Origin: Leptasterias polaris
Lineage: Eukaryota > Echinodermata > Asteroidea > Forcipulatida > Asteriidae
DNA: 64,000 bases
Direction of reading: 5' to 3'
NCBI GenBank assembly: GCA_037783415.1
Contig: JAZGTN010000164.1
Location: 1,116,001-1,180,000, forward strand
The notes under the pieces were generated by a model that did no database searches, was not told where the DNA came from, and saw only the letters and a list, made by a program, of their open reading frames with translations. Positions 24,458-56,925 of this stretch are shown here, one piece after another. The position numbers and the translations under genes were made by a program. The stretch's first letter is position 1; each line of letters opens with the position of its first letter.

Positions 24458-24506
24458 GATCCAACCATGGAGGTAGAAATCTAATTTCTACCTCCATGAT
24501 CCAACC
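24458..24506. mobile_element. Hairpin insertion HP-C with 9-bp direct repeats
   Basis: GATCCAACC occurs at 24458-24466 and again at 24498-24506. Between them are perfect 14-bp inverted arms, ATGGAGGTAGAAAT at 24467-24480 and its complement at 24484-24497, with a 3-base loop CTA. The whole insert is 31 bp. Confidence 0.85.
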
Positions 24507-25269
24507 TACTTTTTTCACAAACATAATCTTCACCATCTTGCTCGTTTTACTGAATGGCCAAGAATGTTATATAAAAGTGGAGACCCGGACTAAGAGCACT
24601 ATTTTGCCCTACATTTTGAAGCCGTGTAGGTGCACCCATCTTTGTGTACAAATACAAACCTACATGTACAAGTAGGTATCAGCTTGAAATTTCGTACGAC
24701 TGCTGTACAGCTATGTGTATAAACACGTCAAAAAGAAAAAACGCACTTTGCATTTTTTTCTTTTTCTATGCATCATTGATTTGAATATATGCCGGGAATG
24801 TGAATCCCCAATCTGTTAATGATCCCCAGACTGCCAGCGCAATCCACTTATCTTTGTGAAACAAGCATCAATTACAGGCTACATTCACTCGTATGTCTGT
24901 GCCATGACATGGCGACTTTTTAATTAAATTCATTCATTGTCATCTTTTGATATGGATTTTGTTCTCAACTTGACACCTACTAGGCATTGAATTCTACATA
25001 TGATGTGCTCTAAAGCAATACATTCAATCATAATAATTCACTATTACAAACATGGAATCTGAATCAGAAACAAAACATCGCAGATAAGATTTATCTTGGG
25101 TGAAGTTGCAAGTGAGAAGTCCCGTACAAGGCGCACAATATGCCTAAAATGCAAAATTCTCGCTATCGAATCAAGCTCTTCACATCAAAATGATTTCCGA
25201 GTCACTAACATGTTTACGAGAAACATTTCTGTGCCCAAGAGGTTTAAACAAATTAGTGAATGTCGTGGA

Positions 25270-25650
25270 TGGAGAGGAGGACAAACTGCTGGTTATTGGA
25301 TACAATCTAGGGAGAGAGTTGCTGCTGAGCAGAGAGAGTGCTGTGCAGACGATGCGTTTCTTTAGCAACTTTATGCACCGCGGAGGATTGGACAAGAAAA
25401 TAATCCAGGGGTCAGTTGAGGGAAAGAGAAGGAGCGGTCATCCAGCATCATGGATGAACAACATTTATAAAGCAGTGGACCAGCCTAGACCAAGTAACTG
25501 GGGTGCTGTACTCCTTTTTAAATAAAATTGACGGCCGCAGAATTTCTTTAAAAAGAGTACAGTGCCCCTAGGACCGGCGAGGGAATGGCAGCTGCAGCAA
25601 GATCAGGAGCTGATCAAGATTGTTGGCATTGGCTGGTGATGACTACCGCA
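25270..25650 (+). pseudogene. Non-LTR retrotransposon RT tail fragment
   Basis: The plus strand reads KKIIQGSVEGKRRSGHP, then SWMNNIYKAVDQ and, after frame changes, a WQLQQDQE-type end. This resembles the C-terminal tail after the RT domain in non-LTR elements, where the pattern VEGKRRRGRP...W is common. It is broken by frame changes. Confidence 0.6.
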
Positions 25651-26890
25651 GCGCATTTTGCACCATCAGACTATTAAGAGAGAGAAAGTGAATGTAACGG
25701 AATATTAGCGCTCTAGTTAAAACATACAGCTCTATGGATTCAACATCTTTCTTCAGAGCAAGGCCCCATGGCCTTGAGTAGGAACAGCTAAACAGTGTAA
25801 ATTGATTTTATTTGACAATTAAAACATGTTTCTTTTTTTGTCGTTTAATTATACGCCAATCTCAATAACTTAACAATTGAAATTATTTGGCCTGCCACAC
25901 ACCTTAGCCCATTTTGGGCTGTTTATTTTAAAGTGTTTAATACTGTAGTGTTGACTTTGATAGTGATATGGTTACTGTCTTTACAATTATTAACATTTGG
26001 GATTCATCGTAGGCACCATAATACACAGCCCAACAAGGTGGATATGTCCCACATTCTGCCGGTCACCCGAAAGTGAGAGTTCACATTACATTCCAGCTCA
26101 TCCATGATTCCATTTCAGTTTCAACAAAAACAATAAATATCATAAATATATCCTCCCCTGTCCGGTTTTCGATGTAGTATGCCTTTTTCTTTGAATTGAA
26201 AACAAATTAAAATATTCCATAATCAACTGATGCCCTAATTACCTTCTTTTGTTTATAAGAAATATGCAAACATATATTAAAACGTGATGGACATTGAAAC
26301 TTTCACACCACGCACCGATCTTCGATGACTTCAATAGCGTCCCATTTGATTTGAGTTTGACCTGTTTTCGATGCAAACAAGAAAGTATGGTGTCCGGGTG
26401 AAGCCATACGTGGAAGAAACATCTGCAGTGACTACAAGTGTTCTGTGAGACTTTAGTGTATGACTCTATAGCCAGCAGTTTTCTTCATTTTATTCAACAT
26501 TTTTTTTATTTAGTTTTAAAAATAACATGGTATTTTTCCAAAACTTAAAAAAATAAAAAATAAAAAAATGTAAATAATTCTTGGCTTTCAAATCTTATTT
26601 TTATTTAGTTTTGTGTCTTTTTATGTTTCTTAACATTTATAATAAAGCATATAAATAAACAGTGATAATCGAATCACAAAGCTGATGTTTAAATTTTAAT
26701 ATTAATAACAAAAATGATAGAGTGTTACTAAAAATAAATTATCCAGACTATTAGAAAATGATATAAGGCACGTGGCTTCTTTAAGCCTCTGTATTTTTTT
26801 CCCCAGAATGCTCAGCAGAATGTTCAGTCACATGATTTGATCATCGTGAATTGTGAATTGAAAAAGTGTTTGATGAAACTTTTTCGGGTG
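25650..26890. other. Non-coding, AT-rich
   Basis: No exon recognised. Long A/T runs lie at 26490-26720. Confidence 0.4.
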
Positions 26891-26892
26891 AT

Positions 26893-28471
26893 ACTATATA
26901 CCGGAAAACACCGGAAAACACCGAAAAATACCGGAAAACTACCGGAAAACACCGGAAAACTACCGGAAAACTACCGGAAAACTACCGGAAAACTACCGGA
27001 AAACACCCTATATACCGGAAAACACCCTATATACCGGAAAACACCGGAAAACACAAGAAATATTTTTTTCACGCCCTCCTTTGGCGCTGCACGTCGCACG
27101 ATCTCTGCACTGAGGATCTACAACGCTCCTGGTGATCCAACCAATAGACTGCTTTCATTGTACCACAGCTATTAGCGCTACGTGAGTTGTTTACAAACGC
27201 AGGCTAACTGACCGGCCATACACAGGCCGCGATTGAGTGCCCCGCAATTATGATACATTCCTTTCTAGTTTACCGCCACTAAAGGCAGCTTAGGCGCGAG
27301 ATCAATAATAAAGTTGCAGGAACTCGCAAGCCCCTGCTCGAGAACGCTCCTTTTGTTTACCCGATTTGCGGCCTGTTTGCGAGCACCCGATCTCCCTCCT
27401 TTGTGTCTGATAATGGTTGGCTTTATAAGCGCCGTTGTGCGTGAATTGTCCACGATCTTCTTGCGGCTTATATAATAACAAAGAATCTCAAAATACAAAA
27501 AAGACGACGCTGCGGCTTATCAAACGCGCGGCTTGTGGTCCGGAATTGTTAGTGGGCGGGGCTTAATGGATCGGTCTATTAATCTCAAAGGTTTAAATTA
27601 CAATTTAGGATGTAGTGTCGGTCAACTTCGCATTGTTCACGTAATAAAATTCCAGCGACAGGCAACATGGACACGCCATGTGTACCCCGCCCAGTACTCA
27701 CCGGAAAACACCCACAAGGATATGAAGCCAACGATATTTATGAAAAACAATTAAACCTATTTAAAAAAAAAATGTCAACACCCAAAAAGTGCCGAATAGT
27801 GAGGGTTGGGGTTGGGGGAATCAACACCTTTTAAAAAGTGTGGGGATGGGGGGGGGGGGGAGGGGGGTGGGTTGGGGGGTGAGGGCCCCCCCTCCCGTTT
27901 AATGTCCCGTGAATAGAACTGTGCTATGTATACAGCATCCAAAACCCTGCACATCGATCTCTTCGAGCAGTGCGCGTGCGGGGTGGCGACTCATCATACA
28001 ATTTGTGGACGAGATTTTGCAGTACTGTAGACGTTGACAAAAAATAAGAACTATATCCAGTGGGGGAAAAAAAAATACATTACAAATACAATCTTATCTA
28101 ATTTTGATCTCTTGCACAGCGTTTAGAGATTTTTAATGTAAAACGCTATATTAAGAATTATTATTATTATTAGTAGTAAGTCAAGTAAAGCATTATTCAC
28201 ACTGAAAGAAATGTTTGTTCTTTTAATTCAAAATAATTATTGTTGCTACCGTTGGCGAGTGGTACCTTCTTTATCCATGTGAAAAAAAGACAGGGAACCA
28301 GTGTAGAGATCGTGCGACGAGCGCCAAATGAGGGCGCGCTTCACTCAACAACGTGAACATTTGTTTTCATGTGTTTTCCGGTAGTTTTCATGTGTTTTCC
28401 GGTGTTTTCCGGTAGTTTTCCGGTGTTTTCCGGTGTTTTCCGGTGTTTTCCGGTGTTTTCCGGTATATAGT
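26893..28471. mobile_element. 1.58-kb non-autonomous DNA transposon with ACCGGAAAAC-rich ends
   Basis: The left end ACTATATACCGGAAAACACC is mirrored exactly at the right end (28452-28471). Both ends carry many ACCGGAAAAC units, and pairing resumes inward: CTTTGGCGCTGCACGTCGCA near 27080 against its complement near 28320. Inverted arms total roughly 170-225 bp. The right terminus is CACTATA if one more base is counted, recalling CACTA/Chapaev ends, but no 3-bp target duplication is clear. No transposase frame is seen. Confidence 0.85.
27849..27900. repeat. G-run inside the 1.58-kb transposon
   Basis: G-rich stretch of four or more G-tracts; possible quadruplex on the plus strand. Confidence 0.7.
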
Positions 28472-28828
28472 GCTACCGACTTTTTCGATGGGAATTTTTT
28501 TTTTTATGGCCCCGACAGTATGACATATTTTTGTACCTTGCAGAAATATCTAAAATACCACAACTTTTTGCATTTACAAGTGCAACTAACCAGTGGAGCC
28601 TTACATGTTTCTAAGTTTTGGTCAAATGAGAGGAGACTCTTTGCTTGGCAAGTCAAACCACAAAAATTGTATCTAGGGACTGTTTACATCGCGCGCAGAG
28701 AGGTAAAAGATTTGCCTCGATTTCAGGGACGCCCTGAATACAGGGCGTCCTACGATATAATCGTTGCAGTCCTTGCCAAGTTATTCATACGCATGTTCCA
28801 TATGGTAACTTAAATATGTGGTGTGGTG

Positions 28829-28866
28829 TGGTGGTGGTGGTGGTGGTGGTGGGGGGGGGGGGGGGG
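28829..28866. repeat. (GGT)n followed by a G-run
   Basis: A GTG/GGT microsatellite runs into about 17 G; strong quadruplex potential. Confidence 0.9.
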
Positions 28867-29499
28867 AGGGTGTGGCTTGGCTCCAGACTAAGAATCTCAC
28901 TGAATGAGTCTCTGTCTGAGACTCAGTGAGAGACTGAGGGGAGACGTCATAAAAAGTACAGTCTATGGTCACGGCACACCACCAGTCACTGTGCTCATAT
29001 GCACGCCTTGAGCTGTGCACAGTCTCGTTATCCTTACAAAATTGAAAGCTACTGTACCGACAATCCTTCGTGTAAAAGTAAACTGTGGGCCTACACTATA
29101 CTAATATTAATATAGCCTTACCGTTGACGCCATATCTTATTATATGTTGAGGCAGGTAGAATAATGAGATCAAAGGAAAACACCAAACCAACCCCAATTC
29201 TCGACCTCAAGCAAACTAAAACTTACAAAGAAAACAAAGAGAGCGTCAACAACAGCGGGCGCTCTTCACGAACGAATGTTATGGGCGGAAATGAGCACCA
29301 ATTTGAGCACGTTTTCGTCGTCTAACTTTAACCGTACACGACCGTCACCATCACTACGTCGGCAAAGATACTTTTAATCAGCCTGTACATTTGAAAAAAC
29401 ATACATACCAGATAATATCTTTAAACTGTAATGGGCAATGGTGAGAATATTTTCATGAGTTGAAAGTAGTGTACAAATACTGGATACTTTCTCTATTCT

Positions 29500-30475
29500 T
29501 AGACTGGCAAGGTCACTAGAGTGCACCCACCCCTTGCCAGCGAAGACGGGGTAGGGCCTAGGGAAATATAAACAGGACCTCTTCTGGTCACTCAGTCCCG
29601 AGGTTGGCGTGTGGGGCGGGGGTAGATGTGCGCCAGCGACCGAATTTTGCCAGTCCATGTGTTTTATAACACACCTCGGTCAAAAATACGAAATAAGAAG
29701 ACTCTTTTTAGAGTATTATAACTGAACTGTTTTAATTCAACTAAGTACTCATAAGTAATTCAACAATAAGCATTCCAACAAGTAAACGTAACTATTTTCA
29801 AGTTCCCTAGACTTCACTGAGTGTTACGATTAGCAATTTTGCTTGTGGGGGAGCTCAAACCACTGAGTCAAAAATGAACTAGCTTCCCGCAAAGTTATTC
29901 GCGACTGTCAAGCTTGGCGCTCGTCAGTTCACGGTGGTGCAAGTAACCCCACAGTGACCGTGTCTCTTAGCCAATCCGCGAACCAGCAAGAGATGTGTTT
30001 TAATATGCACATAATTGATTGGCAATGGGGTCACTAGAACACGCCTATCCCGCCTACCCCGGCCGACTAGTGACCAAAAGAAGGGACCCCCGCCCCCCCC
30101 CCCCCCCCCCCCCCCCCGGCCCCGAGGCCGAATACCGAGGGAAATATAGGTCCTATCATAAGCAATTCAACGTAGGAACGCTTTTGTTTTAGTTCCCCTG
30201 GATTCAGTTTTTATTTGCTAAAATGCACGTGTAGTAGTAGGGGGCATACGGATTTGAATGAATATCACGTGGCCAACAATCATCCAATCAAAATGAGAAG
30301 GACGTACTTCGGTGTTTTATACACGAGGACTGCAATTATGACACATGGACGTAGTCAGTCAACCCAAGGGGGACTGTCAGTAACTAGAAGGGGGTCATAT
30401 TTTCTGAGGCCGGCCTCGGGAGGACACTCTTCTGGTCACTAGTTCAGGCCTAAGGAAATATTGTATTTTCGCACT
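29500..30475. other. Non-coding stretch with recurring TCTGGTCACT / GGGAAATAT words
   Basis: CTTCTGGTCACT occurs near 29581 and 30429 and, inverted with mismatches, near 30070. Each is beside a CCGAGG...GGAAATAT motif. It may be a rearranged repetitive element; boundaries cannot be set. Confidence 0.35.
30093..30117. repeat. C homopolymer run
   Basis: About 25 C within a GC-rich segment; quadruplex potential on the minus strand and a likely sequencing-length uncertainty. Confidence 0.9.
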
Positions 30476-30483
30476 AAGGCCGG

Positions 30484-30635
30484 CTGGTGTGGCGGAAGAT
30501 TTTGTCCCCATACGGCTAACTGAGTGTACTAACTTCTTCTGATAGCGCCCTCTTTTTAATCAACCCCTTCAGCCCATGTTCCACCAATGGGAGACAGAAT
30601 CTGCGGGGGGACAGATTTTCATTGGACGGACACCG
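30484..30635. mobile_element. Second copy of the GGTGTGGC MITE
   Basis: Ends GGTGTGGCGGAAGATTTTG and, in reverse complement, CCCGGTGTCCGTCC; the interior AGCGCCCTCTTTTTA and CCCTTCAGCCCATG matches 8809-8969. Confidence 0.6.
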
Positions 30636-30639
30636 GGAA

Positions 30640-32797
30640 CATGTTGCGTGGTTGTACTGTAAGCCAAGCCCACCTCGCACAAACTTGGTCCAACGAGACT
30701 CTTTGTATGCTAAAATAAAATATACAAAAGTTTTTTGGACTTGCCTCTAGTATTTCTTTTGTAGAATATCAGGGTCAATTAACAGAATTATCAATTTTTG
30801 TCGTAAAAAAACACATTTGAAACGATGAAATTAGTGATTTTGGGGTAAAATTCTATCGCAAGCTTTGGAGACGGAATTAGAGCCAACCACCCAAATTTAT
30901 AGAGCTACTTAGGCTCAGCAATTTTCTGCAAGCAATGTCAAAGATTATGCATAATATCATGGCAATTTGGCTGCTAAGCTTGTTCTGGAAAGCATTATTT
31001 TATGTGCTTTATAGCTTCCTCTTGTGCTTAAGCAGCTCTATGATACTAAGGATAGTCCGAGACGGGAAAGGTGTTGAAATAGGAGGGGATGATAAACGAG
31101 AAGGAGAACTCTACCTGTCCCTATAGCTATAATAACATGAACAAAAGGCCCCGACCCTTGGCACTTGCAAGCATTTCAAAACAGTTTTCTGCGCAACCCC
31201 CTTCAAATATTAATAGTTATGTGAAACATTCCATTGTCGTTGTGTTCTTCTTCTTCTTGTTGCAAACTTTCAGTAGATCTGCATGCTGGTAAGTAGGGGG
31301 GTGACCTTTGGGCTCGACGGCCAATGGCTCGGGAAAACTCTTTCTCTTGCTTGAGCTGTGCCAAAGAAAAATCATGGTGCACCACAAACCCAGGGAAATT
31401 TCTATCTGATTGGATAGTTTTTATAATCTCTTCTCACCATCAATGCTCAATAATGTCTGCCAAAACATTTACATTGGTGTTATTTTAACACCCTGCGATG
31501 TTAATTTTGATGACAACAGCCATGGCGTCAATTTTAACACCCAGTTTTTGCAGTGTAGGTCTACAGACAAAACTAGGGAGGTCTGTTCCCCCACCCCTAC
31601 CTCCCCTAAAAGGAAAGGAAAAACTTGTTATTCTTTCTTCGGCAAACTTTGTAAGTATACCTAACTGTTTATACCATCTTGCGCTAGAGACCCATCATCC
31701 TCATTTTTGTGAGATAGTCGAGAAACCAGGGCTGCCAGCATTACGAAGATGCGACTGCTTCAAGAAGTGACAGACTATACTGGCTCATAAAGGGCCTATT
31801 TTCAGTATGAATTTTTAAAAGAGAAAAATTAAAATAATACCAAACTATGAATAATACATTCATCCAAATCATGATCTTTTTGCTGATGAAGAAGTGATTT
31901 TAATAGAGCCAGTCAACTTATAACAAAAATAGTTGTGTAACTATTATTTTTCCTAAAAATAGTTTCTCTATATTGCGCGCGTAATGTGCTATTTATCAGG
32001 TATGGTTGCACATAACATGTCTATGTCATATGAAACTTGTTCATTCGAAATTTTATTTCATACGGATTTTGCGCAATAGGCCCTATAACAAAAACTATTA
32101 TTTGTATTAATACTATCATCATTATTTATTGTATGATTAATCTATGAAATTATGACGCACTCGATCATAACGTTCTATCCATGGCTATTTATTTTGACTG
32201 TGGTTGCTTTATCCTAAACTTATAGCTTCCTGGGTCATTAAGTGGCCCAAAATCCTAGGTAGGGCCAAATACTTCATGCAGGTTGACTTCTTTCCATCAG
32301 AGTACTACATAAAAATTGATCTAAAATCATTCAAACCATACATTTAAAATCATTTTCGATTTAACATTTTGCATGAATGTGTTCCGCATTATGATAATTT
32401 GGGTTTTGTCTTTTGGATAAACCGCTTGTTACTGTTTAGACACCTGTATGTTGAATAGAACTTTCAATGATCAGATCTGATTGGTGTGACAGTTCATTAA
32501 ACAAAAAAATCAAAATCTCAAGATAAAAAAAAAAAAATTAGAAAAAGTGAACACTTTTCTGTACCTAATGTCCGGCGCCACGTTTGATCGTGGTGTAACA
32601 CTCAGTTCTTGATGACAAAACCTCAGATGTAAAACTGCATCCTGAAAACTCTTCTTTAAAAAAAAGTTAATTATGTCTGAAAAGCTGACATCCATCATTG
32701 TTATGACTAGGGCCTAATTATCAGTGTAGTCCACGAAAATCAAGTGTTCATCAAAGACAAAAGGATGCACAATACGCCTGACTGTTCTTGTCACTGA
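30640..32797. other. Non-coding, no gene seen
   Basis: AT-rich. Two AATTTTAACACCC-like words sit near 31490 and 31535. No exon recognised. Confidence 0.4.
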
Positions 32798-33268: not shown

Positions 33269-34060
33269 TTTTTTAAAACTTCACCCGCGATCAATTTTGA
33301 GCAGTTTAGATCAGAGTCAAGTTTCTGTATCTGTTGAAATTCTCAGACTGATGAAGGATTTAGCCTCGATCAACTTGTTGATTTGCACTGGTTGTATAAA
33401 GGTGTGTTCAGGTGGCCTATTGCATATAGCCAGCACTCCTTGTATTTACACATTCTTGACATTTAATGTATACTCAAAAGTAACCGAAGAGATGACAATT
33501 TCTAGGTGAATCGATGGGCACTACACATTCTTCTAGAACCCAGCCTTTCTTTTGCAAACACTCGACAAATCCACTGTTCTCTATAGAGTCATAAAGGCCT
33601 TTGAAATGTTTAAAGGCGTGCTATGTTTGCACACATCAAATTCTTGTTTATTTGTTGGTACCTTTTTGGGTAGTTTCTACAACTTTATAAGTTCAATGTG
33701 GGCGCATATTTGCGTTTGAAGCCCGCGCGATTTGAAAAGGTGGTAACAGTCAAGTGCAATTGCACTCGATCAAAACATGTCTGATAATGCAGGTTACTTT
33801 TTAAACACGCACCCTTAGATAATACGACGTCTATTTATTTAAGTTTTGTCATGAAAAGAACCTGTAAGTATAATACGTCACTAATTTGCTTTTGCCTCAA
33901 GTGGAGCAGCCTGGTTTCATAAACTATATGACACATCTCTTGCGAGCCATAGGCACATAAGCGAAATATGTTTTAACTTGGGATCTTGCTTCGGTCAAGA
34001 GTTCCTCCACTCTACAAGTTAGTTTCCCCGAATCAAGGTGTGAAAAGAGGGGTCTCCATC
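33269..34060. promoter_or_regulatory. Shared intergenic region of the divergent lectin pair
   Basis: 792 bp between two outward-facing start codons, so it must hold both promoters and 5' UTRs unless distant 5' exons exist. A minus-direction TATAAAG-like word lies near 33681. I cannot assign factor sites. Confidence 0.5.
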
Positions 34061-34558
34061 ATGAAAGACATACTACAAATCGTTTTCATCACCTACTTGG
34101 CCGTGGGTCTTTCGCCAGTCCAAGCGGGTACTGCAGTCGCTAAACCATGCTGTCCAATGTTCTGGACCCTTCGCGGTAGTCGTTGCTACCGCTATATCGG
34201 AAAGTCCTTGAATTGGCACGACGCCCAGAACTACTGCAACGGCCTGGACCACAGGGCAAACCTGGTGTCTCTCGGTACCAAAGGGGAGGCTGAATTCATT
34301 CATCATTTATTCGCCGAGAAAAGTGGAGGGTTGTATAAGCACTACTGGATAGGTCTACACGATGTCGCGAAGGAGGGCGAATTCACTTGGGTTGGTATCA
34401 ACCGACCCATGACTTACAACAACTGGAACCCATCCCAACCCGATAACTCGGGAGATGAAGATTGCGTTGAAGTAGTCACGTTGTCCGGTTTCTGGAATGA
34501 CATCAGATGCCTGTACGATCGTCAGCCATTCATCTGTGAGAGGCCAAGACCTACTTAG
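34061..34558 (+). CDS. Secreted C-type lectin 2 (QPD type)
   Basis: Intronless, 165 codons from the ATG at 34061; the frame is open upstream but without ATG support. The N-terminal hydrophobic stretch (ILQIVFITYLAVGL) ending near residue 23 is a signal peptide. The C-type lectin domain has Cys at 30, 31, 42, 59, 135, 150 and 159, WIGL at 96-99, QPD at 126-128 and WND at 145-147. QPD is classically linked to galactose-type ligands. The shared RG(A/S)RCYRY(V/I)GK block, the CC start and head-to-head position show it is a paralogue of lectin 1. The different tripeptide suggests split sugar specificity. Very close to full length for single-domain secreted lectins. Confidence 0.93.
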   Translation: MKDILQIVFITYLAVGLSPVQAGTAVAKPCCPMFWTLRGSRCYRYIGKSLNWHDAQNYCNGLDHRANLVSLGTKGEAEFIHHLFAEKSGGLYKHYWIGLHDVAKEGEFTWVGINRPMTYNNWNPSQPDNSGDEDCVEVVTLSGFWNDIRCLYDRQPFICERPRPT

Positions 34559-35570: not shown

Positions 35571-35714
35571 TATCATCCTTTTTCGTTTTCAGTAAATGTA
35601 GTGAACCACATTCTACAAAATGTTAACAGCTCTCGAGAAAGTAAAACATTAGCATATATAAAAGCATATATTAACGTTTCTTAATCAGTTTTATTTTTAA
35701 AAGACCGATAAGGG

Positions 35715-38450: not shown

Positions 38451-41400
38451 CTATTGGACCACTTTTATTGTGTGGATGTTGGGAGTTGAAGACAGTGCCA
38501 CACGCCCACTCTGCCCTGCAATCTTTCTCTGGGTCACGCCTGATGGTTGCTGTCTAGGAACATGCTGGTGGGATTGGGTGTGGCCTTGGAGTGTCTGACG
38601 GGCGGAGTCCCTGCTCATAGATGACACTCCTGTTGTTATAGGGTATTGGGAGGCCATTGCATGGCCAATGGTTTGCTGAGGGATGAATAGATATGGTTCA
38701 AATTAAGCAGGTTTAACTTACAAGTGAACTTTCAAACAATATTTCAACAACAAAAACGATTGGGAGCTTACTCTGTATCAACATAGTACAAGCAACAATC
38801 ATTATCAGACAAAAAAGAAAGTATACATGCTGGAAGACATCAAGCTATACAGCAATGTGTGACTTGCCAACAAAATTATCAAAACATACATAACTCATCC
38901 CTCCCCCCAACAAACAATAACAAAAGAACATCAAAGTATCTTTCTCTAATTTGGAAGGAAAGGCAAACTGCAAAGCAGTTGGGTGTACTTATTTGTTCAA
39001 GCCATACAGACCTGTGTAACAGGATGGTGCCTCTCAACCATGACAGAACTCATAGGGGGAGCTAAGCTTGCTCCACTCGACTGCCCTGCCCTCCCAGTCT
39101 CTGGCCTTGTAGAGACTCTAGCTGTGATAGTTTTGGTTGGTTTGTAGCTGTGAGCTGATCTAGAAGCTGACGTCTACAATGAAAAAAGAAAATCATTTCA
39201 GAAAAGGTGTCATGGCCGAGTGGTTTAGATCATCGGATTCAAGTTCTGGTGGTTTAGTCATCGGGGTGTGGGTTCGACACTTGTGTCCTTGAGCAAGACA
39301 CTTTGCTATAATTGCTTCTCTTCACCCAGGGGTATAAATGGGTACCTGTGAGGGTAAAGGTTGATATTGTGTTTGAAAAAAGCCTTCTGAGCGCCACGAC
39401 AGTTCTGGGCTGTATACTCCCCAGGGAGCTGAGAAAGATTAAATGAATGTTATTGGCCCAATGACCAGGGCACTAATGTAAAGCGCATTGAGACCGTTAT
39501 TGTAAAATGCGCTAAAACTAGCTATTATTATTATTATTAAAAGACATCTTAAGCTCATGTATTATTATCCCTCACACAAATTAATTCTGAATATCAACTA
39601 ATAAACCACGAGGGAAACTTCCCAGGTTGTATCATAAACTTGGATGAGATTCCTGACTATACGGCAGTTAAAGAGGGCACAAAATGGTCAAAAAAAACAT
39701 TCACCATTTTGAGCATTACACATTTATTAGTACAAAAAACCCAAACATAGTGGTTTCATAATTTTTATTTACCCCGAAAAAAATTATTAAAAAGTGCTTC
39801 GCATGTGCCTGCGCGCAGCAGAAAATGAAGCAAAAGCCGTCGGGGACACTTTCCGAGAGTCTTTCAGGATGACGTAGCTGGACGTGTGAAACAACTAAAC
39901 GACTGTTTACTGCGCCGCGTCGTGTTGGTTGGGATACAAGAAAATAGCATGGGTGTAATGGGAGTGAAAGTCGTCACACAACCGACTTTTAGCAGCACAA
40001 AACAACAATAACTTTCCTAATTTTCATGTGAAATTTACTATACAAAAACTTACATTCAGTGAATGAAATCCTTGAGTGAATTTAACACAAGTTTCATGGT
40101 GTTCTAAAAAAGTGTGTCGTTAAAATTTAATACATTTCTGTGATATGGGGGAGAGTAAGGATTCGGAAATACGCTCTGATCCTCCTCATCATCGCACCGC
40201 GGAAATTCACAAGATTCCCGGCCGTACCTATAAATTCTCAGATAACTTTAGTTGTGATTATTTTCTTGCGTTACTTGTAGGGCTTATTTGGGGTTTTTTC
40301 CCCCAAATTGATGCCTTGAGGTTGAAAACAAAACAGATCAACACAAATTAAAAACATTGTTGTTTGGAACATAGAGCAAGGACAGACCTTGCTCTATGTT
40401 TGAAAGGACATGAAGGAAATGTTACGTTGCAAAAGTGATTTAAAATAATCACTACATACCTTTGGAATTGAAAAAAATGCCTCTGTTAACAACAGATGAA
40501 GTCTGTACCTAAAACTCTTGGTAAAATCCCTTCAAATTCTTATATTCCATATGTAAAAACACACACACGTTGATCGCGAAAAGCGGAACGTTGCCATTTT
40601 TACTGTGTGTACATTTCACGTGTGAGAGAATGGTGGTGGTCGTCAGGTGTATACAACTCACATGCGCGCACACACAGAACGTTGATGCGTTGGTGATATA
40701 ACTGCTGACCTTTCAACCTTTTGAGGTGCACAGCCATTGTGGGAACCATGTGTTATTTTAAGACTAATGTCGTCTTTAGATTGCGCTCTATCTACGACTG
40801 TTTGCTGTGTTTTAATCGCATGTGTAAAACTTAAAATATAACTTGTCAAACTTCCAGCGCGGTTGCAGGCAAGTAATAGTCGTGTTACTGGCTCACACGT
40901 CCAGCTACGTCACTATTTTGATCAATATGTTTGCTGCCACCATCGGTTACAGGCGTTTATGTTTCTGGACGGCTTTTCTGTGGAGTGTTTTTTCGCCGCG
41001 AATTTCGTGTTTTTTTTACAATACAAGAAAAGTTTTAAAATCCGGCATAAAGGTAATGTACTAATAAATACACGATGTTTAAAATGGAGAGGGGTGGTGG
41101 GGGGAATTTTGTTTGGTCTTTAAAGGTTGAAGGACTTCTAACATGCACTCCCAAAGAAAGATACTAACAAACTATAGGAAGACCGCCAACATAGGGCTAG
41201 ATAGCTCAGTTGGTAGAGTGCTGGTGCGTCGCAGGTACAAGTCCCGCTATACTCAATTTTTCTTTGTTTAGCCCCAAAACAAATTAGTTCTTCAAGTAGT
41301 TTTCTTGTGCCTTGGCAATACTAAGATTTTTTTGCAAATCTAGAAAAAGATGTTGTTAAATTGACTAACATTTTTTAAAATTCTTACAAGTAATACTTTG

Positions 41401-44400
41401 AAATTGAAAAAAATATATAAATACAGATACTCAAAGTGAAATTATTGATGTAACAATAGTTTTCATCAGTGATATACTCACCCCAATTTTGCTGACTGCT
41501 CCTGAACCACTCTGGGTGACAGTGCCTTTGGTGGTTGCACCCTGGCTTGTTACGGTACGAGACTGAGGTGCTGTAACGGTGTTGATAATTCCAGCCACTG
41601 GGTGGGAGGTGTGGGGTGCCCCTGTGGGAGTTGGCACCTGATGTTGGTGGGCATCACCAGATTGAGGTTGACTGTTCCCACCATTATCTTAAAGTTACAG
41701 AAAAACAAATATTACTCTGAGAGAAGTTTGAATGAGAAATGACAATACAGTTCATGCTTCTGAATTGTTACTTCGCCCGTCTTGTATTCAGCCATTAATG
41801 ATACTGTGGTTCGTTTCTTAAAGGGACATGTTGCCTTTGGGTTGGGCACTTTAGGCTCCTAGTAAGTATAATTTTGTTATGCTTTACTACCCTTGCGCTT
41901 AAGCAACTTTATGTAATTGGACTATGGTGAGCTGCAGAAATGTGTCTTTATAAGAAGTCAACATTGTTGAAATCTGATCGTAACCAAGTATGAATATTCA
42001 TGAAGGGGCTCTGTCTCACCTTCGTTCTCATGGAACATTGTCATGGCTTCCAGATTGAGGGCGCACACACCTCGCATGAACGCTTTCTTCATTGTTTCTT
42101 CATACATTTCTCTCTCAGCGTGGAGCCGTGTCACCTCAGTACGTGATGACTCAAGGGCTTCGTTCAACTATTCACAAATGCAACCAACAATTAAAGGGAT
42201 GAGGCGATGTTGTTTTAAAGCAAACTTCAATCCGATGCTCAGCTCTCTTCAAGATTGATATTTAAAAAATAAGGTGAACAAGCTTTTCTAGAAAATATCA
42301 AGAACATGTGTCTTTTGTTTCAAAAACTTCTGCTATTTGGTTTAATACTTGTTACTTTCCTAAACATGAAAAAAAACTTTGCAAGACAACAATTCTCAGG
42401 ATCGCGCAAACTACACTTTGGTTTTCTGAACAACAACTGAATAATTTGTATAGACAATGTAACTTTATGAAATATGTTTACAATAATGCAACACAGGTTC
42501 GACTAATTGCAGGCACAAAGTGTACACAGCTCTGTGGAAGACATTAAATCATTCCATAATTATGGAAGTGCACAATTTTTATATGAATATCTTAAAATGT
42601 ATACAATAATGTCACACAGGTTGGACTAACTGCAGGCACAAAGTGTACACAGTGGAACACAGCATGGCAGTGTACAATTTCTATGTGAACGTTTCAACAA
42701 TACTTCTTTTCATAATATGAAGACAATGATACAAATTGATGAGTTTCACAAATAAACAGCATATTATCTTGCCTGCCAGGAAACTTCCTGGACAAAGAGA
42801 CATGGTCTAAAATATTAAAATAAAGTACTGGTTGGATAGGTTTATCAAGATTCAATAAAGTGATTTCCAGTGCCAAGTCAAAGCTATGTACTCACTGAAG
42901 CAAGTCGTGTCTCGTAGTCATTGGTGAGTGACATACACACTTCTTGGGCCTTGGATTGGCAAGCGTTCTCAACACGCTGTTTCCACTTTGCCTCAATCAG
43001 ACTGTGCCAAGCACCCCATACTTTAGTCATCTGGCGCCGTTCTCGTTGCCTGACAGCGAGCTTGCTAGTGAAAGCCTGGCAGAGTCGAGATATAAGAGAT
43101 AAAATGAATGAAACATTATCTTCATTGATGACATTCTTGCATTTGGAAGGAAGGCAAGTTAAGACACCGTATTTGTTATCAAGTAACAAAACACAAGGGA
43201 AACAGAATGGGTGGTGGTTATATTTTAAATATTTCTCGGTTGAATTTTAAATAATATTGGCATTTTCCCTATTTTGTCAATATCTTTGTTAATGGTGCCA
43301 ATCAGAAGCATTTAAACCTGTAGCAATTAAACCTGTTTATGTTTCTAATCAACAGGGGGCATTTCAGACAAAACAATTTCGCAGGATGCGTACTATCAAT
43401 ACTGTTTTTAAAACAATGAAGCTTTTGCATAGAAATTACACAAGTTTTTATCTGGATCATTACCAAAGTATGACCGTATCTCTAAGTAGCAAATGTTTAC
43501 TACGATGTGAACATTTGTTGTTTGTCACACTCTTCATTTTCAAATAACAAACCACAAGGGAAACTGACTGGGTAAATTTTAAATGATTTTGGGTTGAACA
43601 AGGAAAAATTGACTAGAGCGGGATTTGAACCAACGACCTCCGGATTGACGTGCCGGCGCTCTACCAACTGAGCTATCTAGCCCTATGATGGCGGTCTCCC
43701 TATTTTGTCAATATCCTTGTTCGGTGGGTGCCAGTCAGAAGCCATTCAACCGTAAACTGCCGTGTAGCCAGGGATCACACCCAAGTATACGATACAACAT
43801 GGGAAGCGGCAGCCAGGGGATCACCATAAGGGGATGCGACTCTTCATTTTCATAAGAGCATAGGTGTGACAACTTCAAAAAAGGTAAAAGTGTGGAAAAA
43901 GTCAATTCATGTTCTTATCTGCACTGCCATTAAATAGTTTTAGCAATGTCCTCAATAATTTTTGTTACACTTGAGGATTGTAGAGATTATTTTAGCAAGC
44001 AGATTACTCCATTACTGACCTCCCTGCGATCCTCACTGTGCCTCAGTTTCCAAGCCTGAAACGTCCTTAGCATTTCAAATCGTTCTTTTTGTCTCTGCAG
44101 CGCCCTCGTAAGATTGGACACTACGCCATCCTTTCGCTCGATGGACACCTCGTACGTGTGCAGAAGCTCCTTTAGATTCCCTATTTCGTTCTGGAGATGG
44201 TCGATATCTCGACTGTGTCTGTACATTCATTACAAATAATCAATAATAAAAACAAATTAATTGTTACAGGGAAGGTAAGTAATACTACACAAACAAACTT
44301 CAGGGAATTAATATCTAAAGGCTAACAAATTTGTTTATTGCCTTTTTGTAAAATAATCCTAACAAAACACAATGAAATACTCAAATTGTCAATACAAAAC

Positions 44401-49432: not shown

Positions 49433-49527
49433 AACTATAAAGTTTAGGTTATTAAACTTCTATCACATTTTGGAGCATTTGCAGTTGCAATGATCATAAC
49501 CCTTCTACCCAACGAGGGTAATGAGGA

Positions 49528-49666: not shown

Positions 49667-49844
49667 CTACTTACTCTTTTATTCCTATTCATAAATGCAA
49701 TATTTTGTTAAAAAGTGTAGTATAAGTGTTGGAAAACTGGTAAAACTTTTCTGTAAATCTTAAATTCTGTCTCGTTCTCAGGCTCAGCAGGCTTCGTTTC
49801 GCGAAGGGTCAAAATTGTATTGACGCAACAATGACGCTCAATAA

Positions 49845-50202
49845 TTAAAGGGACACGTTGCCTGAAATGTTTGTTATGAAATGATGGTTAGAATGATGTT
49901 TTAAAAGTAGCAATGATCCACACAAATATGCCTCGAAATTGCGTGGTTTTTCTTTTACATTGTGAACTAACACAGCCCGCCATTTTGTAGAGCAAAATTT
50001 TTGACTCCACAAAATGGCGTACCGTGTTAGTTCGCAACGTAAAAGGAAAACCACACAATTTCAAGGCATAGATATTTGTGTGGATTATTGTACTCTAGAT
50101 CTACTTTTAAAACATCTTTCTTTACCATGCATTTTATAACAAACGGTTTCAAACGCTTTTCATAGCCCAACTCGGCCAATCCAAGGCAACGTGTCCCTTT
50201 AA
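49845..50202. mobile_element. MITE with TTAAAGGGACACGTTGCC ends
   Basis: Terminal inverted repeats are identical over TTAAAGGGACACGTTGCCT. The interior is also largely palindromic (AATTGCGTGGTTTTTCTTTT against its complement). The length is 358 bp. A lone end fragment lies at about 41819. Confidence 0.9.
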
Positions 50203-51703
50203 TGCCAACGGTTGTGCATACGTTACGTGCCTGTCCTAAAAACAACAGATTTTAAATTGATTAAGAATGGACTCTATATAAACTGTCCAGTGTATTTAAA
50301 AACAAAAAATCCTATAGTGTAAATATGACGAACTGACAAAACAAGAAAGTAAAAATTACTAATAATAATATAATATTAAATATTAAATATTTGTCTCGAC
50401 TTGACTCGGACTTCTTCGAGGACATGGAGGAAGGAAGGTAGCCCCACTTCTGTGGCTATTAAGGCTTGCTGAATCCTTTTTGGCCACAGAACTTCTGTGC
50501 TAGGACTAGGTAGGAGTAGTAGTTGCGATAATCGTAACCACACAAAAAAACAAACTTTGAAACAAGTTGGTATAATAAAATAACACTCTAGTCTAGGCCA
50601 TTATTTAATATACTAAACACTATTTTAAAACTCAAAAGTCGCAAATACGCTCAGAACATGCATGGAGGTATGTCCGGAAACTAGGCAACAACAAAAATAA
50701 ACCAAAACAACATGGGCAAGTTACATATTGATGCTTTTCGTTAATACACATTTAAATCAAATTAACGCATACAAGATTTAGCATGAAACACAAACTGAAA
50801 CAAATAATAAAAATTTACCGTTTTTAGATGTTTCTCGCGTGACCATAAAGTTATTGTCAACTAAAAATTAAATGCCCGCTGTAATATTCAAACGAAAGCG
50901 TTAATTGGTTTATAATTTCATAAGCTTGTTCTCAATTGGTCAATTCTGTAGGTTAACTCACGACTGTTTTATCCTCCTTACTCTTTGTAAGATGTACGAT
51001 CACTTATTTGTAGTTATACACACAACAGTCGCAGAGGCGTTGTAAGTATAGCTACCTGTCGTCGTTTGATCCGTGCTTGTGTCCTTTATTGGTACCTGGC
51101 TGCTTGTGAATTGTCTGTTTTTATACTTCCGTGTAAAGGAGGTAGCGGAAAACCCGTGATAAATGTTGGAATTTAATACAGATCCGTAAGTTGTGGTAAC
51201 CAAAACAAGATTTATAGTCTGACTGGCTTAATGACGAAGTGTGAACTTTTTCTAACCTGAAAGTGAAACATAAAAAGTAAAAGGAAGTTTTGTTTACATG
51301 CTCATCTTTTTACAACCGGTTGTGAACGAAACCACATGTTGAATTGAATGTTTTACATGCAGTGCGCAGAAGGATGTGTGATTGAACCGATACCAGTGAC
51401 TGACCTGCATCGAGATTCAAAGCGGAGATATCTGGCTACATAAATACGAATAGTACATGTACACGTACATGTATGTTTGTAGTTTGTGCAAGACAAGATT
51501 ACCACATTGAGCAAAAGGAGACAAAATGACACGCTTTGTGGAACACTTTTGGGTAGGTTTGGTTTAATTAACAAATTTGTTCTGTTTCTTTTCACTTGAC
51601 TTTGTTTGTAATATTAGCCTTTCTTTGATGTGTTGTTGGTAAAGAAAAGACTAGTGTAAAAACTATAGGGCCACTTCTGGTTGGAGCTCATGGATGATGG
51701 AGC
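50203..51703. other. Intergenic between POC5 and the non-LTR element
   Basis: No exon recognised; a POC5 5' UTR exon may be hidden here. At 50520-50539 the 20-mer TAGTTGCGATAATCGTAACC equals the start of the HP-B hairpin arm, preceded by TAGGAGTAG like the end of HP-A. Confidence 0.4.
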
Positions 51704-51705
51704 TA

Positions 51706-51798
51706 GCCAGTGGGTACTCCTAGAATTATGAGGTTCGATCGCTATCGTCTGGAGACGATAGCGGAACGAACCTCATAGTTCTAGGAGTAGCCAGTGGG
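51706..51798. mobile_element. Hairpin insertion HP-A1 with 9-bp direct repeats
   Basis: GCCAGTGGG occurs at 51706-51714 and 51790-51798. The 75-bp insert at 51715-51789 starts TACTCCTAGAATTATGAGG, and its second half is the near-complement, ending TTCTAGGAGTA. There are a few mismatches and a 2-base loop at 51751-51752. Confidence 0.9.
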
Positions 51799-51947
51799 TT
51801 GATGGAGGTTACGTTTAAAAAGTAACTCTACCGTTTAATAACACCGTCAGTGAGTCACTGTATTGGTAGAAAATAACTTATAATTAACATAATAATAACA
51901 GGATTTCTATAGCGCCATTCCATCAAGATCATGGCGCTTAATAGCAA

Positions 51948-52039
51948 CAACAAGAGTAGTTGCGATAATCGTAACCCTCCTCCCGACGGGTTCAAGCCCG
52001 TCGGGAGGAGGGTTACGATTATCGCAACTACAACAAGAG
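51948..52039. mobile_element. Hairpin insertion HP-B with 9-bp direct repeats
   Basis: CAACAAGAG occurs at 51948-51956 and 52031-52039. The 74-bp insert has perfect 34-bp inverted arms (51957-51990 and 51997-52030) starting TAGTTGCGATAATCGTAACC, with loop TTCAAG. It is inserted into the 3' end of the non-LTR element, so it is younger than that copy. Confidence 0.95.
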
Positions 52040-52803
52040 GTAATGAAAAACAAATACATTTTAAAGGGCTACTGAGTACTGGAAACAGGTGAGTTTTTAA
52101 GTTGTTTTTGAATGACGAAACAGTGTCCAGTGATCTGATGTGAGAGGGTATATTGTTCCAAAGCTTAGGGCCAGCAGTTGTGAAGGCTTTGTCCGTGCAA
52201 GTGTTTTTTGACCTAGGTTCTGACAGCAGCGTACCATCACTGCATGATCGAAGACCGGATCAACCAGATACGTGGAGCTGGATACAGCGATCAAGGTATT
52301 GTGGAGCTGTGTGATGGAGACATTTGAAGATGAGGAGTGCGACCTTAAAGCGAATTCTTTGCCGGACAGGAAGCCAATGAAGTTTAGCAAGTAGCGAAGC
52401 CGTCGATTCACGCCTGTCAACTGCAAATAAAAGGCGTGCAGCACGGTTTTGTAGTCGCTGGAGTTTAACCAGATTGAATTCCGTAATACCAAAGAGTAGG
52501 GAGTTGCCATAATCCAGACGGGATAGAACTAGCGCACGAATTACTTGGTGACATGAATCAAAATCAAGGTATCTGCGAATTCGCAAAATGTTGCGAAGTT
52601 GAAAGTGGATGCTGCGGTTGAGGTTGAGAACATGTTTTGACATTGACATACTTGCATCAAAATAGATTCCCAGGTTGTGAACGGACAGCGATGGTGTTAT
52701 GACAGTGTCCCCTATTGTCAGAGTGACAGGAGGCAAGTTGCGAAGCGTGTGTGTTGAAGCGGCTATAAGAAATTCAGTTTTAGTGTCGTTCAGTTTGAGC
52801 ATA

Positions 52804-52855
52804 TTGTGGGTCATCCATAGCTTCACATCTTGTGGGTCATCCATAGCTTCACATC
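52804..52855. repeat. 26-bp tandem duplication inside the RT region
   Basis: TTGTGGGTCATCCATAGCTT plus CACATC is present twice in a row. Since 26 is not a multiple of three, it explains the frame change between the two RT-region frames that overlap here. Confidence 0.9.
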
Positions 52856-55285
52856 TTGGATGCATGAAGACAAATTGTTCAGTGCAGATTGCATCGATTC
52901 CGGATCCTTGGGGTTAAATGTGGAATAAATTTGAGTGTCATCATGGAAACGAAGACCGTGTTTGCGAATTATTTCACCGATTGGCTTTATATAGATGGTG
53001 AATAGCAATGGACCTAAAACAGAACCTTGTGGTACCCTGCAGTCAAGTGTTTTTGTGTGTGAAAACTCGCCATCAATACACACACTACATGTCCTATTGT
53101 AGAGGTAGCTATGAAACCAGCACAGTCCTTTCCTTGTCAGGCCAATAGACTCACTGAGCATCCGTAGAAGGATTTGGTGGTCCACAGTGTCGAAGACGGC
53201 ACTTAAATCTAGAAGAACTAGAAACACACCTTTGTTGTCACCAATCGCGAGCATTATATCATTTTTGATTGAAAGCAGTGCAGTTTCCGTGCTGTGTCCG
53301 GATCTGTAAGCGGATTCGTGAGATTCCCAAAGATCATGATCATCCATATGTGCTGTAATGCGGGAAGCTATTACCTTTTCAATGACTTTTGAAATGAAAG
53401 GTAGGTTTGACACTGGACGGTAGTTGGCAAGTTCATTGATGTCGGACGACGACTTTTTAAGAATCGGGGTGACAGTTGCGTGTTTAAGTGAGTCCGGAAA
53501 AATGCCTGTAGAAATCGATGCATTGACAATGTGGGTGATAATCGGGAGAAATGAGTTGGCAGCAGACTTTAATAACCATATTGGAATGAGGTCAAGACTG
53601 CACGTTTTGTTGGTTGAAGAGCTGATGATTTGACGAATCTCATCTTGGGGTGCAATCTCAAAGTCTAGAGCTGGTATCACCTCAGGATCGGCACTGCGTA
53701 AGATTGGGTCAATCCCACGCTCAAGGTTGTTGCGAATATTGGATATCTTGTCGATGAAGAAATTGACGAAGTCATTTGCTAGTGATTGACATGAATCGGA
53801 CAAAGGGCGGGGTTTGGTATTCGTGTTGAATAGTGTCCCAACTGTTTCAAAAATGCTTTTTGTGTCAGCATTTTTCAGTTGATTAGCGAAAATAGGCTCG
53901 TTTTGCAGTTTCAATGAGGCTGTTGACGTACTTTCGCTGATTCACAAAAAGTGCGAAGTGTGATTCTAGGCGACTTTTTTGCCACATCCTTTCATATCAA
54001 CGTCGCATTTTCCTGGCAGCATGAATATCAGTGTTGTACCACGGCTGACGCAATCTGACTTTACGGCGACGAGTCTGAAGGGGGGGCATGCCGATCGAGC
54101 ACTTCTGCGATAACCCTGTTGAATTCGGAGACTAAATCACTCGGGTTGGATACGTCGAAGCATGGTTGTATGGCAATGGCAAAATTTGTGGTTAACAAGG
54201 GCAGATCGATAGACCGGAAGTTCCGCAAAGTGTGAACAATATCAGGATACGTGGGCTTTGAAATTCGGAGTTTGCAACTTACAACGTGATGGTCTGATAA
54301 AAAGTTATCATAAACAACACAGGACTGAACGAGATTGTCGTCCTCACGACTACGGACCAGGTCTAAAATGTGACCACTCTTGTGCGTTGGACTCGTCACA
54401 AGTTGCTTGAAGCCGAACGCCGACACGGACGACATGAATTGAGAGACATCGGACCGCGACGGCACATCAATGTGTAGGTTAAAGTCACCGACGATCAGAA
54501 TCTTGTGTGAATTCAGGGCTATTATGCCGATAAATGTGTCGAAATTCCCTGAGGAACTGCAATGTAGTGAATCTGTTTGTCGGCGAGGGGGGTGGTCTGT
54601 AGATGACTACAACATTTATACATGTATCTCGCTTTCTATCGGTGAAATAGGCATGTTCAAAGGTGTTAGTTATGTAATCAAAATTATGGATGAACATGTC
54701 AAGTGGGGATTTATAAAGCAATCCACCCGCCATAGCTATGGGTTCGGTTGGAATCGGTAATGACCGGTCGAGGAACATTAAAAAACGAATAGCCTGGTGC
54801 GGTAATCTCACAAATGACAATAGAGCTTTCATTGTTGAGCCAAGTTTCAGTTACAGCCATTATGTCAATCTCATGTTCGAGGACATATTCCGAGAATGAA
54901 AGAATTTTGTTACGGAACGATCGGACATTCCAGAGGCAAACTTCAAGCTGACTAGGAGGAGGTGACGGGAGTACATTGATCGTACGAATTGATCGTACGA
55001 TTTGATCGACGCTTGGTCTTGCGGGATCCAGCACGGGTCCCTCTATGGGTTGGGGGCTTGGCTTGAATCCCAAGATTTCTGATGGTGGACCAAAAATGAC
55101 AAGGGATGGGTCGTCCAGAACAGGCAGTTCCGATGGTCAACAGTTGTGTTGTGGTGTATGTAAGATTCAATTGCCGAGAGCGATAGTCAGTTTGATCAGG
55201 ATGTTGGTTGTCTGTGCCTGGGTTTGGATCGACATCACCACAAGGTAATAATGTCACATTGAAGGTGGCCATGGAGTTATAATAA

Positions 55286-56320
55286 TAAGAATTGCGGGCC
55301 TTGCAAAAGCCCTTAGGCCTGTTGTGACGAGATTTTGAAGCTCCATTTTATTTTGACGTGGTTGCTATCAACAGCAACCCATTGTTGGTTGAGCAGGTTG
55401 AATGAACACAACAGTGTTACTAGGAGTAGGGTCTTAAACTCCGTTGCTCTGCTTCACTGTTTTCATTCACTGAAGTGATTGTTATGACTACGCACCGGTG
55501 ATCGGGGCTAGGGTAAGATGGCTGTCACGTCTTACTCAAGCACTATCCGTCACTATGGGCCTTGCGTGTGGATTTCTGTCAATCTAGCTTTAAAAACAAA
55601 ACCCTCTTTGGGCTACTTTAAGCGTGCTTATACAATGTAAGCTTGAACTTGTGCCAGTATTTCTTGTTTGCCATTTCGCCGTTTTTCTAAGTTTTCCTTG
55701 CTATGTCTTTTCACTTAGTTCTATTAGACACCGGTCTTCCTAATTTCCCATTAATAATTAATATGTACATTATTTCGTTTATTCTCACTTAAATATTTTC
55801 CTTCTTGGTCTTTTTTCTCTCTTTTTACCAACCCCTACTCTACACAATCATTTATTTATTTTTTGCTCATTTTTGTATTTTTGTTGTCCACTTGTTTGTC
55901 TGTCTTTCTGTCCTGTAAGGCATCCCTCCTCAAGCTCTGTTTTAGGGATTTGCCCCCATATCACCTCCTCTTTAAGTTCTTGTTTATTATATGGCCATTT
56001 TGTATGCCTCTTTTGTTAGTTTACTATATAACCCTCTTGCTGTCTGACCATTCAATACCATTCACTGTGGTTTTGAATGATAGATAAGCTATGCCAGCCT
56101 TGCAATATGATACCATGAGGGAATGCATACACAGTACACTGTGCACAGTTGTGCCACCATACACAACTTTGGCAGTTTAAAATGGTTGGTCAACTCACTT
56201 GAAAATGTTGCGAACAGTAGGAGGGATAATTGTCTATTTCATGCATGCACTTCTGTATTTTCGTCTTTCTGTGATATGGAAATAAATGTTATATGAATGA
56301 ATGAATGAATGAATGAGATC
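55286..56320 (+). repeat. Repeat-derived DNA ending in an ATGA microsatellite
   Basis: The right end ATGGAAATAAATGTTATATG followed by (AATG)n at about 56293-56318 looks like the 3' end of a non-LTR element on the plus strand. A piggyBac-like MITE has inserted at 56032-56225. No coding part is visible. Confidence 0.5.
56032..56225. mobile_element. piggyBac-like MITE, second copy, ATAA duplication
   Basis: Closely matches 18133-18340, with small deletions (for example the ACAGTTAGTTCT segment). Flanked by ATAA at 56028-56031 and 56226-56229, a variant of the usual TTAA. Confidence 0.85.
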
Positions 56321-56837
56321 GTTCATATCGAATCAGTACATGTAGATCAAGTGTGCAGAACTAACAAGTTTAGAATGGTGCATGAGACCAATCTGAAGAT
56401 CCCAGTATGCTCTCTGACGTTTTCACTACCATCTGTCAACGATCAAGGATGTAAGTCGATCGCAGCCTCAGTAAAAGATGAAATTTAGTGAGAGGTGTTG
56501 CATGACGTGGCAGCCTGCTAGGCGCACAACAACATGATTAATAATGAGAAGTTTTGCCCCAAAAATATGTGTTAGCTTAAGAAAATTAGAATTCTTGTAC
56601 CACTTAGAAAATAAAAGTATGAGCTGTGGTTTTGGCACATAATTTTACGAAATTTAACAGTAAAACAATAGAGAGTCACACCGACATTAAAAAAACACAA
56701 ATTTCAAACTATACGCCAAAAGTAATAATTAGTTTCAATTGACACTAATTATTAATATGGGCGTATCGGTCACAATTTGCGCATAATATCCACACGCAAT
56801 TTGCACATATCGGCCCTATATGTTAGCTTAGTGCATG

Positions 56838-56925
56838 GGGAGAACCTACTCCTAGAACTATGAGGTTAGATCCGCACGATAGCGGATCTAACCTCATACA
56901 TGTAGTTCTAGGAGTAGGGAGAACC
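56838..56925. mobile_element. Hairpin insertion HP-A2 with 9-bp direct repeats
   Basis: GGGAGAACC occurs at 56838-56846 and 56917-56925. The 70-bp insert begins TACTCCTAGAACTATGAGG (56847) and ends TTCTAGGAGTA (56916). The arms pair fully except for a 6-base ACATGT insert in the right arm; the loop is ACGATA. Homologous to HP-A1. Confidence 0.92.

Follow-up and report, generated by a model that had tools for sequence, protein, structure and literature searches.

Introduction

Human MADE1 is reported as an 80-bp near-perfect palindrome, in which two 37-bp terminal inverted repeats (TIRs) are joined by a 6-bp spacer (PMC1784062). We analysed four hairpins of similar form in a 64,000-bp stretch of the genome of the sea star Leptasterias polaris (assembly GCA_037783415.1, contig JAZGTN010000164.1, positions 1,116,001 to 1,180,000 of the forward strand), referred to here as the window; their names (D, A1, B and C) and window positions are given in Table 1. 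Like MADE1, they are TIR-only, near-perfect palindromes with the form of a hairpin, and MADE1 thus provides a precedent for TIR-only miniature inverted-repeat transposable elements (MITEs) of 70-75 bp. Unlike them, MADE1 derives from the mariner element Hsmar1, with a different transposase, whereas each hairpin described here is bounded by a 9-bp duplication. Hsmar1-type mariner elements duplicate the dinucleotide TA.

Duplications of about this length are described for Mutator-like elements (MULEs) and for the foldback/Phantom group. Muta1, an active animal MULE of Aedes aegypti, is reported to make 8-9-bp duplications with no apparent sequence preference; among the 14 MULE families described from the same genome, 12 have TIRs above 100 bp and two have TIRs below 60 bp (PMC5225508). 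Long TIRs are thus a usual rather than a strict feature of MULEs. Our hairpins resemble Muta1 in the length of the duplication, and MULEs are further described as forming many families per genome, with non-autonomous derivatives whose TIRs are often truncated. They differ from Muta1 in that its TIRs are given as 145 bp long, with subterminal tandem repeats, and most of its derivatives as having a variable interior, whereas the arms here measure 14-35 bp and enclose almost nothing. In the plant MULE family MuTAnT, a 9-nt duplication is described (PMC4486113).

In the foldback/Phantom group, Tm1 of root-knot nematodes is reported with duplications of 8-10 bp, mostly 9, in 45 of 53 complete elements (PMC3169594), and Tetris, a foldback element of Drosophila virilis, with duplications of 8-10 bp in a paper that also cites a sea-urchin foldback element (PMC4079207). 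The fold-back inverted repeats and the duplication length are common to these elements and to our hairpins, and Tm1 is said to have MITE-like members as well. By contrast, the TIRs described for Tm1 and Tetris are composite (repeated motifs in Tm1, up to 1,735 bp in Tetris) and the elements reach at least hundreds of bp; no repeated motifs were seen in the hairpins.

Our proposal, at a probability of about 0.6, is that all four hairpins inserted as minimal non-autonomous MITEs. The transposase that moved them would cut with a stagger of 9 bp and would most likely be of the Mutator/foldback/Phantom (MULE) kind. At least two families, A (A1 and C) and B, are probably represented, and D is perhaps a third.

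Four hairpins lie between exact 9-bp direct repeats

The original prediction, made from the letters of this DNA, had listed hairpins of 31, 75, 74 and 70 bp with exact 9-bp direct repeats on both sides, and we found 4 of 4 where it had placed them (Table 1). It had called them near-perfect palindromes. This holds for B and D, which have perfect arms; A1 and C are imperfect, A1 showing 6 mismatches and 2 gap openings over 76 columns when aligned with its own reverse complement, and C having a 6-nt bulge in one arm. Folded as single DNA strands, D, A1, B and C reach z-scores of -8.4, -11.7, -15.9 and -12.3, each fold being better than that of 200 out of 200 shuffles of the same hairpin. TIRs with an exact flanking target duplication, as expected of a MITE, are present in 4 of 4, and the duplication length falls within the 8-10 bp (often 9 bp) of MULEs, at 9 bp each time. 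A tandem-repeat scan with a score threshold of 50 found no tandem array at the hairpins.

Table 1 Hairpins, their target duplications and the partial relatives of hairpin B, in window positions.
Feature	Positions	Strand	Description	Method
D left target duplication	24458..24466	+	9 bp, GATCCAACC	
D hairpin	24467..24497	.	31 bp; two perfect 14-bp arms, 3-nt loop CTA	
D right target duplication	24498..24506	+	9 bp, GATCCAACC	
A1 left target duplication	51706..51714	+	9 bp, GCCAGTGGG	
A1 hairpin	51715..51789	.	75 bp; termini TACTCCTAG...CTAGGAGTA, arms of ~35 bp, 4-nt apex	
A1 right target duplication	51790..51798	+	9 bp, GCCAGTGGG	
B left target duplication	51948..51956	+	9 bp, CAACAAGAG	
B hairpin	51957..52030	.	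74 bp; perfect 34-bp arms, 6-nt apex TTCAAG	
B right target duplication	52031..52039	+	9 bp, CAACAAGAG	
C left target duplication	56838..56846	+	9 bp, GGGAGAACC	
C hairpin	56847..56916	.	70 bp, second family-A copy; relative to A1, 12-nt gap at the apex and 6-nt insert in one arm	
C right target duplication	56917..56925	+	9 bp, GGGAGAACC	
Solo B arm	50520..50539	+	20 bp identical to the outer part of the B arm; no partner arm found	local alignment
Decayed B relative	49483..49514	+	32 bases related to the left arm of B; no second arm or duplication recognised	by eye

The flanking repeats are not explained by chance

We scanned the whole window for left-maximal direct repeats of 6-20 bp around inserts of about 20-150 bp and asked which inserts are palindromic from end to end (score of at least 0.55, ends shiftable by up to 3 bp). 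Out of 3376 direct repeats, 4 enclose such a palindrome, and these are exactly the four hairpins, whose maximal repeats measure 9, 9, 10 and 12 bp. First-order Markov shuffling of the window, repeated 40 times, yielded 3 such cases among 93660 direct repeats, each with a repeat 6-7 bp long. When the hairpin lengths were placed at random in the real window, an exact 9-bp flanking repeat arose in 171 of 2,000,000 placements. The placements and the Markov control agree with the earlier statement that a chance 9-bp match at all four sites is very unlikely, and together they rule out a chance origin.

The association can be seen from the side of the inverted repeats too. A search for inverted repeats that have perfect 12-bp arms and span 28-120 bp gave 14 distinct cases. 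Three of them (B, C and D) have an exact 9-bp flanking repeat, and the other 11 lack any flanking repeat of 5-13 bp. A1 falls outside this set, as its perfect outer arm is 11 bp long. Under the same arm rule 40 shuffled windows gave 28 arm pairs, and flanking repeats of 7-10 bp were seen at none of them. The bulk of the other hairpins in the window are thus not inserts of this kind. One of them, at 40368-40400, belongs to the size class of D (perfect 14-bp arms, 5-nt loop) and has no flanking direct repeat of 5-13 bp, which makes it a natural negative control.

Ordinary inverted-repeat elements were also considered as a source of the 9-bp signal and rejected. In 15 other intervals, some of them nested, we allowed the ends to shift by up to 12 bp; 11 gave repeats of at most 6 bp and four gave 7-10 bp, none being a credible duplication outside the arms. 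The 10-bp repeats at 5075-5105 and 18067-18095 are palindromic words within their own arms, the repeat at 59982-60256 is AAATTTT at the arm ends, and that at 59112-59170 is the palindromic TGACGTCA.

A duplication of 9 bp uses the entire repeat

The maximal direct repeat is 9 bp at C and D, 10 bp at B and 12 bp at A1, and we take the surplus bases of A1 and B to match the ends of the insert by chance. Symmetric ends lead to 9 bp in all four hairpins. For family A this boundary is fixed independently, because A1 and C are homologous and show the same termini in two insertions. The outermost bases of the duplication can pair over 1 bp at B and at D, and over 2 bp at C, so that a longer palindrome can be drawn if the repeat is shortened; a mechanical scan indeed scores the longer palindrome with a 7-bp repeat slightly higher for B, C and D. 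Our reading for these three is 9 bp: only this length uses the entire repeat, whereas 7 bp leaves bases of the duplication unexplained.

Family A was inserted twice

Two of the hairpins had been called homologous by the original prediction, presumably A1 (51715-51789) and C (56847-56916), and these two do align from end to end. Apart from the gap and the insert listed in Table 1, what remains of the apex of C is also present in A1. The same sequence, including part of the apex, is therefore inserted at two different sites with different duplications. A shared apex is unexpected if two longer elements had collapsed independently, which suggests that the hairpin itself was the unit that moved; judging from the sequence, the mobile unit of family A is probably the entire hairpin of about 75 bp.

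At position 22 from the end, both arms of A1 have C and both arms of hairpin C have A, a C:G pair against an A:T pair. The other substitutions of A1 and its 1-base gap are confined to one arm. This single paired difference may mean that conversion or snap-back copying keeps the two arms alike.

With A1 as the query, nothing in the window scored above the shuffles (27 against a maximum of 36 in 25 shuffled windows). Hairpin C gave one local alignment, 5587-5631, to its apex and right arm, with a score of 36 against a maximum of 34 (25 shuffled windows); at so marginal a score the match is possibly an old relative, possibly chance. A family-A 19-mer had one match in prokaryote genomes, without a palindrome, about 2 being expected by chance in 257 billion bases, and viral contigs contained no exact match to a family-A 19-mer or to a B 20-mer. 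The 9-mer TAGGAGTAG, the right end of family A plus one base, stands at A1 (51782) and C (56909). It occurs twice more near the cluster on the same strand, at 55421 and at 50511, the latter directly before the solo B arm; these occurrences may be due to chance.

Family B has two partial relatives

Besides the full hairpin, the window contains two partial relatives of B (Table 1). Their local alignment scores are 40 (50520) and 36 (49483), whereas 25 shuffled windows gave no score above 29. The second differs from B by one inserted base and otherwise by G/A and C/T substitutions. A longer B element starting from the solo arm was looked for and rejected: no partner carrying the 9-mer that adjoins this arm (at most 3 mismatches) was found except around the known B and A hairpins. 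As for the multicopy families expected of a MITE, the window holds two full copies of A, one full copy and two partial relatives of B, and a single D.

Between 49.5 and 56.9 kb the window holds three of the four inserts together with both relatives of B, and in their midst a remnant of a long interspersed nuclear element (LINE). Just upstream of this cluster, at 49844-50203, is a 360-bp nested inverted-repeat element, MITE-like and without a clear duplication, whose outer arms are a perfect 20-bp ATTAAAGGGACACGTTGCCT and whose inner arms, at 49927-50070, are 85% complementary.

Target sites and age

G and C make up 22 of the 36 bases of the four duplications, against a G+C content of 0.396 in the window (binomial p 0.007; post hoc, n = 4), and the bases at the ends of the duplications are G or C in 8 of 8 cases (again post hoc, n = 4). 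Such G+C-rich duplications hint at a target preference. The observed/expected ratio of CpG is 1.58 in A1, 1.48 in B and 0.93 in C, compared with 0.63 in the window, D being without CpG. The exact duplications and the high CpG of A1 and B are consistent with recent insertion.

A proposed mechanism: minimal MITEs and a transposase with a 9-bp stagger

A DDE transposase cuts the two strands of its target a fixed distance apart and thereby leaves exact duplications of one length. The constant, exact duplications found here point to a transposase with a 9-bp stagger, and cut-and-paste movement of minimal MITEs is then the simplest account. From this we infer transposition itself and, with it, the kind of transposase: the original prediction had likened the duplications to those of Mutator and foldback elements, which is supported by the fixed 9-bp stagger at 4 of 4 sites, Mutator/foldback being the best-fitting known class. 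In the mechanism we propose, each element would consist of two TIRs set back to back with an apex of 3-6 nt. A DDE-type cut-and-paste transposase, encoded by an autonomous element at another place in the genome, would bind both arms, excise the hairpin and insert it at a 9-bp staggered cut, and repair of the gaps would yield the 9-bp duplication.

It had also been argued that these inserts, being so small and with unlike termini, do not fit an ordinary MITE. We do not follow this argument. For the size there is the precedent of MADE1, and for the termini there are the 14 MULE families of a single mosquito genome: unlike termini are expected of families with different autonomous elements. A transposase recognising the bare hairpin would therefore not be required.

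Several observations weigh against minimal MITEs of the MULE kind. The termini (TACTCC in A, TAGTTG in B, ATGGAG in D) are mutually unrelated, and no feature of them provides a link to MULE termini. The arms, at 14-35 bp, are neither long (>100 bp) nor composite, as MULE TIRs usually are. No transposase, and no MULE domain, was found among the 8 of 24 window open reading frames (ORFs) of at least 110 amino acids that were scanned against Pfam, nor was a longer element with these termini, autonomous or not, found in the window. For plant MITEs, A-T-rich duplications are described (PMC12595863), unlike the present ones. D is the part that the ordinary MITE reading explains least well: arms of 14 bp are short for two transposase sites and fit poorly, and nothing in the window resembles this 31-bp hairpin above noise (24 against a shuffle maximum of 33). 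A paired change such as that at position 22 of the family-A arms, a single observation, would rarely arise by independent decay. Finally, two stricter or differently built scans return only part of the set. With arms of at least 12 bp and up to 2 mismatches, 15 hairpins were found, two of them (B and D) with a 9-bp repeat, A1 being missed and C recovered only as its inner part; when the maximal repeat had to abut the TIR, only C and D remained at 9 bp, the other matches of at least 7 bp being a 16-bp repeat within a tandem array and a 7-bp repeat around a 14-bp insert. The inverted-repeat scans recover fewer than four hairpins because their rules on arm mismatches and repeat length exclude some of them.

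Other explanations

The same minimal MITE mechanism could be driven by Merlin, or by another superfamily with a 9-bp stagger, instead of a MULE. The termini identify no superfamily. A Merlin copy with 9-bp duplications is reported from a red alga, and Merlin is recorded in Echinodermata with 8 sequences in 2 species (PMC8101967), which also counts against a MULE. The same source reports few echinoderm Merlin copies, and the Merlin copies that it describes encode transposase, unlike the hairpins (PMC8101967). We consider this reading unlikely; the usual duplications and termini of Merlin are taken up at the end of this section. It is somewhat less likely that the hairpins are immobile and represent foldback transposons with a 9-bp duplication that lost their middle and collapsed to two arms. 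Foldback elements are described with long inverted arms and 8-10-bp duplications, the 12 nt that C lacks relative to A1 suggest that apex loss may occur, and the solo arm at 50520-50539 matches the outer 20 bp of B and not its interior. Against such a collapse stand the apex sequence common to A1 and C, which independent events would not be expected to leave, and once more the negative search of the window for a longer element with these arms. It seems improbable that a transposase instead recognises the hairpin (cruciform) structure, irrespective of terminal sequence, and mobilises unrelated palindromes of 30-75 bp alike with a 9-bp stagger; signatures of such an enzyme would be D, whose 31 bp hardly accommodate two sequence-specific sites, and the arms of A that change in step.

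Capture of hairpin DNA (snap-back or template-switch products) at 9-nt staggered breaks, with no sequence-recognising transposase, we consider very doubtful. It would suit D, very short and without a relative above noise, and the lack of sequence relationship between A, B and D. Yet the stagger is 9 bp at each of the four sites, as a transposase would make it, whereas random breaks are expected to vary, and B-related sequence is found at two further places; for type A, capture, which had been offered as one of two explanations, is disfavoured by the two insertions of the same ~75-bp sequence. Chimeric reads are a known source of palindromes, and a fold-back artefact of library or assembly could be suspected on this general ground. 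It would be expected to mirror the flank, however, whereas here the flank is directly duplicated over 9 bp, and one hairpin sequence is present at two places with differences between them; an artefact is accordingly hardly credible. Merlin elements make duplications of 8-9 bp, a range into which 9 bp falls, and their termini usually start with G. Here the duplications are of 9 bp in 4 of 4 cases and 0 of 3 kinds of terminus start with G, and minimal MITEs moved by a MULE-type transposase remain the reading that we prefer.

Implications

DNA has a persistence length of about 150 bp. Should the hairpins move as whole units, two transposase sites would be accommodated on DNA shorter than this, a direct test of how far apart the ends of a transposon must be to pair. 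The lower size limit of a transposon would then be very low, with little beyond the ends, and would stand at 31 bp if D is real. The hairpins could also supply hairpin RNAs, as MADE1 is described to have done for a human microRNA family (PMC1784062). Their small size may hide them from repeat annotation. In a literature search with four sequence words, at least one of which occurs in 132 papers, the 20 matches listed contained neither of the two longer words; judged by title, none of these 20 concerned such hairpins and one concerned a rice transposon (Dart).

Surrounding sequence

The LINE remnant lies between B and C: an ORF with a reverse transcriptase domain is located at 52823-53914 on the minus strand, with further minus-strand ORFs across 52097-55073. 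A second retroelement, Gypsy-like, is indicated by a 645-aa ORF with integrase and chromo domains at 261-2198 (minus strand). A known RNA family was rejected as the identity of the hairpins, since the only Rfam matches in the window are two tRNAs away from them, at 3077-3149 and 43610-43682 on the minus strand. Both are inside a dispersed repeat (3001-3278 and 43537-43816, 84% identical), probably a tRNA-derived short interspersed nuclear element with more partial copies.

An inverted pair of 233-bp repeats, 23875-24107 and 60854-61086, is 97% identical at a distance of about 37 kb; these are probably two recent copies of one element. A tandem array with a 41-bp unit, 15 copies and 99% matches occupies 7860-8474. 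Two minus-strand ORFs, 19364-20344 and 22754-23305, carry a C17orf113-type zinc finger (PF25431); they may belong to related genes or to a gene derived from a transposon. The ORF at 33986-34558 encodes a C-type lectin, whose relatives point to animal DNA, likely of a sea star or close kin; among the 17 matches listed, its best named relative is from Acanthaster planci (63% identity), another relative reaches 75%, and the other named relatives are fish lectins at 30-38%.

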